From an uncultured Flavobacteriales bacterium (GTDB lineage Bacteria; Bacteroidota; Bacteroidia; Flavobacteriales_G; Salibacteraceae): a stretch of DNA of 64,000 nt. Below, one piece after another: positions 14,568 through 16,305 of the stretch. The notes under the pieces are model-generated. The model saw nothing but the letters and a program-made list of their open reading frames with translations, was not told the origin of the DNA and did not search any database. The translations under genes were made by a program, and so were the position numbers. Each line of letters begins with the position of its first letter. Position 1 is the first letter of the stretch. Where the stretch lies: the NCBI GenBank assembly GCA_937121175.1, contig CAKZKD010000002.1:310001-374000 (forward strand). Reading direction: 5' to 3'.

Positions 14568-14573
14568 GATAAT

Positions 14574-14660
14574 AAAAAGGGGGCTCAACTTCACTTCTTC
14601 ATAATAATTGCTTAACACCCAAAATCTAACTATGAAAAATCATGCTCACACCCCCTTTTT
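14574..14660 (+). other. Long-range inverted repeat closing a ~67-nt segment
   Basis: AAAAAGGGGG (14574-14583) is perfectly complementary to CCCCCTTTTT (14651-14660), with further T after it. The enclosed segment contains an ATG at 14632 that opens a 14-codon reading frame (MKNHAHTPFFSMLA). It may be a structured leader, a small RNA with its own terminator, or a degenerate repeat. It sits between the DUF3298 and DUF2147 genes. Confidence 0.45.
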
Positions 14661-14702
14661 TAGTATGCTTGCATAGTATTAACGTAAAGGAATAGAAAAA
14701 GT

Positions 14703-14710
14703 TATTTTTG
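14703..14710 (+). promoter_or_regulatory. Candidate -7 element TATTTTTG
   Basis: An exact match to the Bacteroidota -7 consensus TANNTTTG, 17 nt before the ATG of the DUF2147 gene. I see no TTG at the expected -33 spacing. Confidence 0.4.
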
Positions 14711-14727
14711 AATTAAATTAATTAACA

Positions 14728-15165
14728 ATGATTAAGAAAGGGTCTATTTTACTGGGATTAATGATATTGAGTGCTTTGGTTTGGGCTCAAAATGCAAACA
14801 ACGTAATTGGAGTATGGAAAACCATCGACGATGAAACAGGAGAGGCAAAATCTCATGTCGAATTGTTTATGAAAGGTGATAAACTGTTCGGAAAGGTGGT
14901 AAAAATTCTAAACCCAGCTAAGGTTGATAATGTTTGCGAATTGTGCGAGGACGAGCGAAAAGACCAAAAAATAATGGGAATGGAAATCGTGCAAAACATG
15001 GAATGGGATGAGGACGAGTGGGACGAAGGAACTATTCTTGATCCAAACAAAGGTTCTGTTTACGATTGCAAACTATGGTTGGAAGAAGACGATAAAAACA
15101 AACTGTACGTTAGAGGTTACATTGCTTTTATTTTCCGTACTCAGAACTGGTACAGAGTACAATAA
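14728..15165 (+). CDS. DUF2147 domain secreted protein
   Basis: A 145-aa protein with a signal peptide (about 1-20, ending VWAQ) followed by a single DUF2147 domain: IGVWKTIDDETGE at the start, GKVVKI in the middle and the closing LYVRGYIAF. The family is a small periplasmic beta-barrel-like fold of unknown function. A CELCED motif and an acidic stretch (EWDEDEWDEG) are seen around 70-108. The next gene begins 9 bp after the stop, and a terminator-like hairpin lies just inside it. Confidence 0.85.
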   Translation: MIKKGSILLGLMILSALVWAQNANNVIGVWKTIDDETGEAKSHVELFMKGDKLFGKVVKILNPAKVDNVCELCEDERKDQKIMGMEIVQNMEWDEDEWDEGTILDPNKGSVYDCKLWLEEDDKNKLYVRGYIAFIFRTQNWYRVQ

Positions 15166-15174
15166 CGCTGCAGT

Positions 15175-16305
15175 TTGACCTTTAAAAATATAATAATAGC
15201 CCAATTTATTTGGGCTTTTTTTAGTTGTAACAGCGACCAAACGACAAGAGTTCCAAAGGTTGAAGCACCGTCCGTCCCGGCAGTATTAAGCAATCAACAA
15301 AAGGCTTTAGCACAGTCGCTCGACAGTCTTGTTAGCAGGCGTAACCGTCAAGGTATTTTTAATGGTGTGGTGTTAGTTGCAGAATATGGCTTGCCTATTT
15401 ATTGCAAAGCCTACGGGTATTCAAACTTTAGAACAAAAGAGCTGCTCACCGAACACTCTGTTTTTCAGTTGGCTTCTGTTTCTAAAATGTTCACGGCTTC
15501 AGCCATACTGCTACTACAACAACAAGGGTACTTGTCAGTAAACGACAGTATTAAGTCTATTATTCCTGATTTTCCGTACGATGGACTAATTATTCGGCAT
15601 CTACTTACTCACCGTAGTGGTTTACCTCGTTATATGGTGGTGAGCGATGAACATTGGCCACGAGACAGCATGCTAACTAATGAAGATATGCATGAAGTGA
15701 TGGTAAATCATCCGCCCAAAAAGTATTTTTCGCCCGATTTTAGATTCAATTATCAAAATGTAAATTATGCTTATCTAGCACTTATTGTAGAACGTGTTTC
15801 AGGCATGAGTTTCGATAATTACGTTCGTGATAATATTTTTGAACCTCTTGGCATGTTTGATTCTAGGGTGTATTCTGGAAAAAAACAACCCGACATTACA
15901 GGTGCTGTTATTGGTCATATTTACAGACGCCCAAGAGTGGTTTTACCAACTGAAAACTATATAAATGGGGTAACTGGAGATAAAGGTGTCTATAGCTCTG
16001 TTTACGATTTGCTAAAATTTGACCAGGCCCTATACACGGATACTTTTTTAACCGAAGACTCCAAAAGACTTATGTTTCATCCTTGGACCCAGTGGCGAAG
16101 AGGGAAAAAAGACAGTTATGGTTTCGGTTTTCGCATATCTACATTCGAGAAAGATCAGTTGATATACCATCACGGATGGTGGAATGGATTCAAGACTTCC
16201 TTTATGCGCTATACAAATAGTAAACGGACGGTACTTGTTTTAACCAATAGAGACCGAAAGCTTTCTATTACGAAAGAAATCCAGCAGCTGCTGTTTCCAG
16301 ATTAA
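15175..16305 (+). CDS. Serine hydrolase, beta-lactamase class C/PBP family lipoprotein
   Basis: A 376-aa periplasmic hydrolase of the AmpC/esterase/D-alanyl-peptidase superfamily. The nucleophile motif is SVSK (Ser101, Lys104), the second motif is YQN (193-195), and HHG (332-334) occupies the KTG-box position. It has a lipoprotein-like signal (WAFFSC, Cys18). The first usable start is a TTG at 15175, because an in-frame stop lies 12 bp upstream (the stop of the preceding gene) and no ATG occurs before the catalytic domain. A terminator-like hairpin overlaps codons 8-16. The substrate is unknown; peptidoglycan peptides or small esters are family possibilities. Confidence 0.88.
   Translation: MTFKNIIIAQFIWAFFSCNSDQTTRVPKVEAPSVPAVLSNQQKALAQSLDSLVSRRNRQGIFNGVVLVAEYGLPIYCKAYGYSNFRTKELLTEHSVFQLASVSKMFTASAILLLQQQGYLSVNDSIKSIIPDFPYDGLIIRHLLTHRSGLPRYMVVSDEHWPRDSMLTNEDMHEVMVNHPPKKYFSPDFRFNYQNVNYAYLALIVERVSGMSFDNYVRDNIFEPLGMFDSRVYSGKKQPDITGAVIGHIYRRPRVVLPTENYINGVTGDKGVYSSVYDLLKFDQALYTDTFLTEDSKRLMFHPWTQWRRGKKDSYGFGFRISTFEKDQLIYHHGWWNGFKTSFMRYTNSKRTVLVLTNRDRKLSITKEIQQLLFPD
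15198..15222 (+). terminator. Intrinsic-terminator hairpin inside the serine hydrolase 5' coding region
   Basis: AGCCCAA (15198-15204) pairs with TTGGGCT (15210-15216) across a TTTAT loop, and seven T follow (15216-15222). This is a textbook terminator 32 bp after the DUF2147 stop, yet it lies within the signal-peptide codons of the serine hydrolase. It may terminate most transcription from the upstream promoter and let some through. Confidence 0.65.

Follow-up and report, generated by a model that had tools for sequence, protein, structure and literature searches.

Terminator-like hairpin in the signal-peptide codons of a Salibacteraceae serine hydrolase, a probable partial terminator of the preceding DUF2147 gene

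In the 64,000-nucleotide stretch analyzed here (the window), from an uncultured bacterium of the Salibacteraceae, the signal-peptide codons of a serine hydrolase lipoprotein also spell a hairpin and T-run with the form of an intrinsic terminator. The hydrolase gene follows a DUF2147 gene, and we consider it probable, at roughly 70%, that the element is that gene's own intrinsic terminator, acting partially within a two-gene operon and lowering hydrolase output. Compared across genomes, the hairpin seems less an accident than a built-in control of output, because it is nearly unchanged in four genomes and because the same arrangement occurs at other gene pairs. Judged from the alignments, start-proximal terminator-like hairpins are a class and not a single case. 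The parts of the locus are as follows.

14703 to 14710, plus strand: TAnnTTTG (TATTTTTG), candidate Bacteroidota-type -7 promoter box of the DUF2147-hydrolase operon, called by consensus match only
14728 to 15165, plus strand: DUF2147 gene (PF09917), first of the pair; the pair is also present in the congeneric genomes G001, G002, and G003 and in G005 and G008
15166 to 15174, plus strand: spacer from the DUF2147 stop to the TTG start; its length is 9 nt in each of the four congeneric genomes, whereas its sequence differs
15175 to 16305, plus strand: serine hydrolase lipoprotein gene (PF00144), TTG start, second of the pair; TTG conserved in four species
15198 to 15216, plus strand: terminator-like hairpin, 7-bp stem AGCCCAA/TTGGGCT and 5-nt loop TTTAT; stem invariant in four species
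15216 to 15222, plus strand: T-run (U-tract), seven T, coding for FF of the signal peptide; invariant in four species

Inspection of the sequence places hairpin and T-run together at 15198-15222, beginning 32 nt past the TAA of the DUF2147 gene and 23 nt into the hydrolase open reading frame. The arms lie at 15198-15204 (AGCCCAA) and 15210-15216 (TTGGGCT) around a loop at 15205-15209 (TTTAT), and the first of the seven T is also the last base of the stem, which leaves six T beyond it. This is the layout of an intrinsic terminator, a GC-containing hairpin followed directly by a U-tract (four GC pairs, loop of five, six T). The stem is modest (7 bp, 4 GC pairs), and the isolated hairpin folds at -10.1 kcal/mol. 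Translation of the 376-aa frame assigns residues 8-16 (IAQFIWAFF) to the hairpin and T-run. An initial annotation of this DNA had described a 7-bp stem, a five-base loop, and seven T at 32 bp from the DUF2147 stop, encoding residues 8-16; its dimensions, coordinates, and codon assignment are correct, with one T shared by stem and tract. An Rfam search of the region returned no family above the cut-off, and folding it gave no stable competing or antiterminator structure. No leader ORF besides the hydrolase gene itself and no ribosome stall motif was found at the locus.

The frame at 15175-16305 matches PF00144 with E=1.4e-51. Its TTG lies 9 nt past the DUF2147 TAA, in the same frame, and the next in-frame ATG falls inside the catalytic SVSKM motif. 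The hydrolases of G001-G003 have the same 9-nt spacer and TTG, show no indel between the TTG and the end of the hairpin, and carry the lipoprotein-type FFSC cysteine; that of G002 has no ATG, GTG, or other TTG ahead of the catalytic region. By this comparison the TTG, already proposed as the start of a frame with no ATG before the catalytic domain, is the only usable hydrolase start, and the signal lies in the coding sequence of a real signal peptide. An alternative start or a frameshift is ruled out by the conserved TTG and by the G002 gene. As for transcription, each of the four congeneric genomes has the TAnnTTTG box 24-25 nt ahead of the DUF2147 ATG, and no second TAnnTTTG is common to them as far as about 400 nt inside the hydrolase gene; the window's own genome (G000) alone has one additional match at -224. 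An internal promoter was rejected, since the interval from the DUF2147 promoter to the hydrolase gene contains no TAnnTTTG. The proposal that transcription from the DUF2147 promoter meets the hairpin agrees with this sole shared consensus box, since full-length transcripts starting there would have to cross the element; that transcription would mostly stop there, as was also proposed, stays a prediction.

Comparison with related genomes, suggested at the outset as a check, finds stem and T-run unchanged in congeneric species whose synonymous sites are otherwise saturated. The three congeneric hydrolases are 78-79% identical in protein to that of the window, and about 0.41 of the fourfold-degenerate third positions of the CDS are identical among G000, G002, and G003. 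Against this background, 25 of the 27 hairpin and T-run bases are invariant in four species, and the two changes both fall in the loop. The hairpin is the best conserved 27-nt segment of the CDS (6 of 1102 segments reach that score, all overlapping it). In three lineages the six multi-codon residues encoded by stem and T-run all use identical codons, for which p~2e-4 given the residues, an estimate based on the gene's own rates and small per-residue counts. The invariance of the stem means that it gives no covariation information. A more distant relative, G005, has the same gene pair, with an ATG 3 nt past the stop, and at the same site and in the same signal peptide an unrelated terminator-like hairpin (AAAGGTC-TTTTA-GGCCTTT-TTTTT). 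G008 has the same pair and no hairpin, and terminators after DUF2147 in other genera followed no common pattern among the plus-strand loci surveyed. All genomes compared are draft or metagenome assemblies, and gene calls and hairpin scans were made with simple scripts. At a further locus (L008, in G014), the reading frame of the DUF2147-linked hydrolase is interrupted close to the N-terminus by an in-frame stop or frameshift, and its signal-peptide hairpin lacks a T-run.

How much of this could the peptide produce by itself? When codons at this site were resampled with the peptide preserved, 31% of draws formed some terminator and 1.6% formed one of this strength. Given the peptide, a hairpin as strong has p~0.004 in G005 and p~0.016 in the window; the window value is the weaker because IAQFIWAFF itself favors a hairpin. 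The 454 kb covered of the window's own contig contain one start-proximal terminator, with 1.3 expected, and G001 has 14, with 3.2 expected, an excess inflated by misplaced starts, for example after a tRNA. Such counting within a single genome is uninformative, and it is the cross-species sequence comparison that decides.

An orthologue screen covered 2.45 Mb in total (G000, 454 kb; G001, 1.2 Mb; G002, 0.8 Mb) and required a hairpin-plus-T motif to lie inside aligned coding sequence in both partners. The first 40 codons contained the motif in 2 of 436, 2 of 243, and 3 of 249 orthologue pairs; the same screen found it in 3 of 3297, 2 of 1826, and 1 of 1899 later 40-codon blocks. The first-block matches represent three distinct loci, namely the window hydrolase, lptC (TIGR04409), and what we take to be a GH3-like gene. 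A separate scan of G001 found three further hairpins that are kept in all four species: in an M1-peptidase signal peptide, in a KdsC-like HAD gene preceded by a CBS-domain gene, and in a formyltransferase-like gene whose TTG is conserved. Of the six embedded hairpins, three fall within signal peptides. TTG-only starts account for about 3-6% of orthologue pairs, and a TTG as the hallmark of embedded terminators is suggestive only.

L238-L241, L244-L247: M1-peptidase signal peptide and TTG-started formyltransferase-like gene, with first-codon hairpins in the four congeneric genomes

On sequence grounds the case for lptC is stronger than the window's own. Where lptC follows a TPR gene, 13 of 20 genomes, representing three families, have a hairpin in its signal-peptide zone, and about 76 later blocks contain none. 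The hairpin sequences differ between genomes (L290-L309), with compensatory changes. Both-side changes occur at 5 of 14 pairs among five lptC sequences (2 of 500 shuffles reach 5), the lptC covariation score is reached by none of 500 shuffles, and the KdsC-like stem has 14 both-side-change cells in eight sequences (0 of 500 shuffles); these figures come from sets selected for having hairpins, with shuffles that ignore relatedness. Slid-partner controls gave much lower covariation at both loci. The lptC gene of the window's own genome (L293, G000:C2:377474-378016, minus strand) lies about 3.5 kb past the window's right end. In the KdsC-like genes (L222-L225, L229, L231-L233), the hairpin lies within codons for KGGxF(I/V)xxPF and covaries across genera, and the genera without it mostly lack the F after P.

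Placement also points to the upstream gene. In stretches of G000, G001, and G002, ordinary terminators of the genus lie a median of 24 nt past the stop codon, mostly 20-30 nt. The embedded hairpins lie 32 nt (window) and 24-42 nt (lptC) past the upstream stop, and because these distances are terminator-like, they resemble a terminator of the upstream gene in front of which the next gene's start has been placed. The sharp peak at 20-30 nt hints at a fixed ribosome shadow and perhaps at transcription-translation coupling.

We propose that the DUF2147 gene and the hydrolase lipoprotein gene form a two-gene operon read from the box at 14703-14710, the hydrolase starting so near that the DUF2147 terminator would double as signal-peptide codons. 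Most polymerases would stop at about 15217-15224 and leave a DUF2147-only message, and a minority would read through to give the two-gene message, holding the hydrolase at a low, fixed ratio; the TTG start would lower its output further. The alignments support the anatomy, the conservation, the sole shared consensus box upstream, and the recurrence with compensatory changes at the lptC and KdsC-like genes. In E. coli, with nearly the geometry of this locus, Li et al. found that a terminator 28 bp past a stop codon retained ~90% efficiency and that translation cost one 30 bp past a second AUG only ~10%; ribosomes from the second AUG met no stop on the terminated RNA, and upstream expression fell to about half (PMC4824070). 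Within the first 100 bp of an ORF, terminators function since the ribosome has not yet caught up (PMC4824070), and partial terminators between genes are an established means of setting operon ratios (PMC9045158). This geometry, together with the known ratio-setting terminators, is why we favor a constitutive partial terminator. By analogy with another phylum, the window element should terminate largely independently of translation, and the weak TTG start would limit the loading of ribosomes onto terminated, stop-less messages. Weighing against this reading are the modest stem, the readiness of the peptide to form some hairpin, the chance-level count on the window's own contig, the lack of covariation in an invariant stem, and the G008 pair that does without a hairpin.

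The initial annotation had instead envisaged an attenuator built from coding sequence, whose hairpin translating ribosomes could melt. Ribosomes reinitiating at the TTG would cover or melt the stem, and readthrough would rise with hydrolase translation. The stop-to-TTG spacing, conserved at 9 nt, would be suitable for reinitiation, sensitivity could come from a weak start codon, half of the embedded hairpins are in signal peptides, and the peaked stop-to-terminator spacing hints that ribosomes closely trail RNA polymerase in this genus. Nevertheless, we think such gating unlikely. A ribosome at the DUF2147 stop is too distant to reach a stem 32 nt downstream, one initiated at the TTG normally arrives after RNA polymerase has passed, and the equivalent engineered arrangement in E. 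coli cost termination only ~10% (PMC4824070). The locus also yielded no stall motif, leader peptide, or antiterminator fold. What is supported of the attenuator is the terminator-like signal in signal-peptide codons, not the translational gate.

Other readings place less weight on termination or more on regulation. Hairpins near start codons or at 3' ends can lower initiation or protect and process ends, and at 23 nt into the ORF this one could protect or process the DUF2147 3' end or lower hydrolase initiation, with termination incidental. This seems to us quite unlikely, more so than gating, given that the T-run is kept together with the stem in the window and that members of the class combine a hairpin and a T-rich tract, with a terminator-like spacing from the upstream stop. 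Less likely still, and highly speculative, is a Flavobacteriales class of regulatory terminators that occupy the opening codons of envelope genes (lptC, lipoproteins, a secreted peptidase) and whose readthrough would depend on the way ribosomes engage the nascent signal peptide, such that export status would feed back on transcription. We give the least credence, and very little, to chance, that is, a T-rich signal-peptide sequence that happens to fold and is retained with the peptide. The 31% of resamplings and the own-contig count speak for it, but synonymous positions are frozen in the hairpin while the rest of the gene is saturated, an unrelated hairpin occupies the same site in G005, and the lptC and KdsC-like stems covary.

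The constitutive partial terminator that we favor has several known counterparts. Partial intra-operon terminators in ABC importer operons of cellulolytic Clostridia likewise place a hairpin and U-rich tract between co-transcribed genes and allow partial passage, but they are intergenic, whereas that of the window is built from the second gene's codons (PMC9045158). The engineered tR2 of plasmid W48 in E. coli also sits ~30 bp past a start codon, that of an operon's downstream ORF; it is synthetic with an AUG start (PMC4824070), whereas the window element is natural, conserved, and preceded by a TTG. Leader-peptide attenuators (pyrBI, amino-acid operons) share a terminator near or inside a translated region, but no leader peptide, alternative antiterminator fold, or set of sensing codons was found here, and the translated region is the gene itself. 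Premature 3' ends inside E. coli coding sequences, some at the start, are similar in position, although those are RNA data from one species with many ends arising via Rho or processing (PMC7815308), and the evidence for the window case is comparative and drawn from sequence. A search of open-access papers found no account of conserved terminators embedded near gene starts in Bacteroidota.

A terminator within a coding sequence is commonly taken as noise or an annotation error. The conserved ones favor the opening codons of a packed pair's second gene, where protein sequence and transcription control share bases, and this sharing constrains signal-peptide evolution. Embedded terminators also offer a reason for the weak start codons associated with them, namely fewer non-stop ribosomes. 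For operon prediction and gene-start calling in Bacteroidota, a terminator should not count as a gene boundary.

A noncoding segment of about 100 nt that precedes the DUF2147 promoter (window positions 14570-14670) is highly conserved in the four species. This segment is single copy in the genome and has no Rfam match above the cut-off. It is bounded by AAGGGGG and CCCCCTTTTTT, its ends seem to covary, and it may be a small RNA or structured element.
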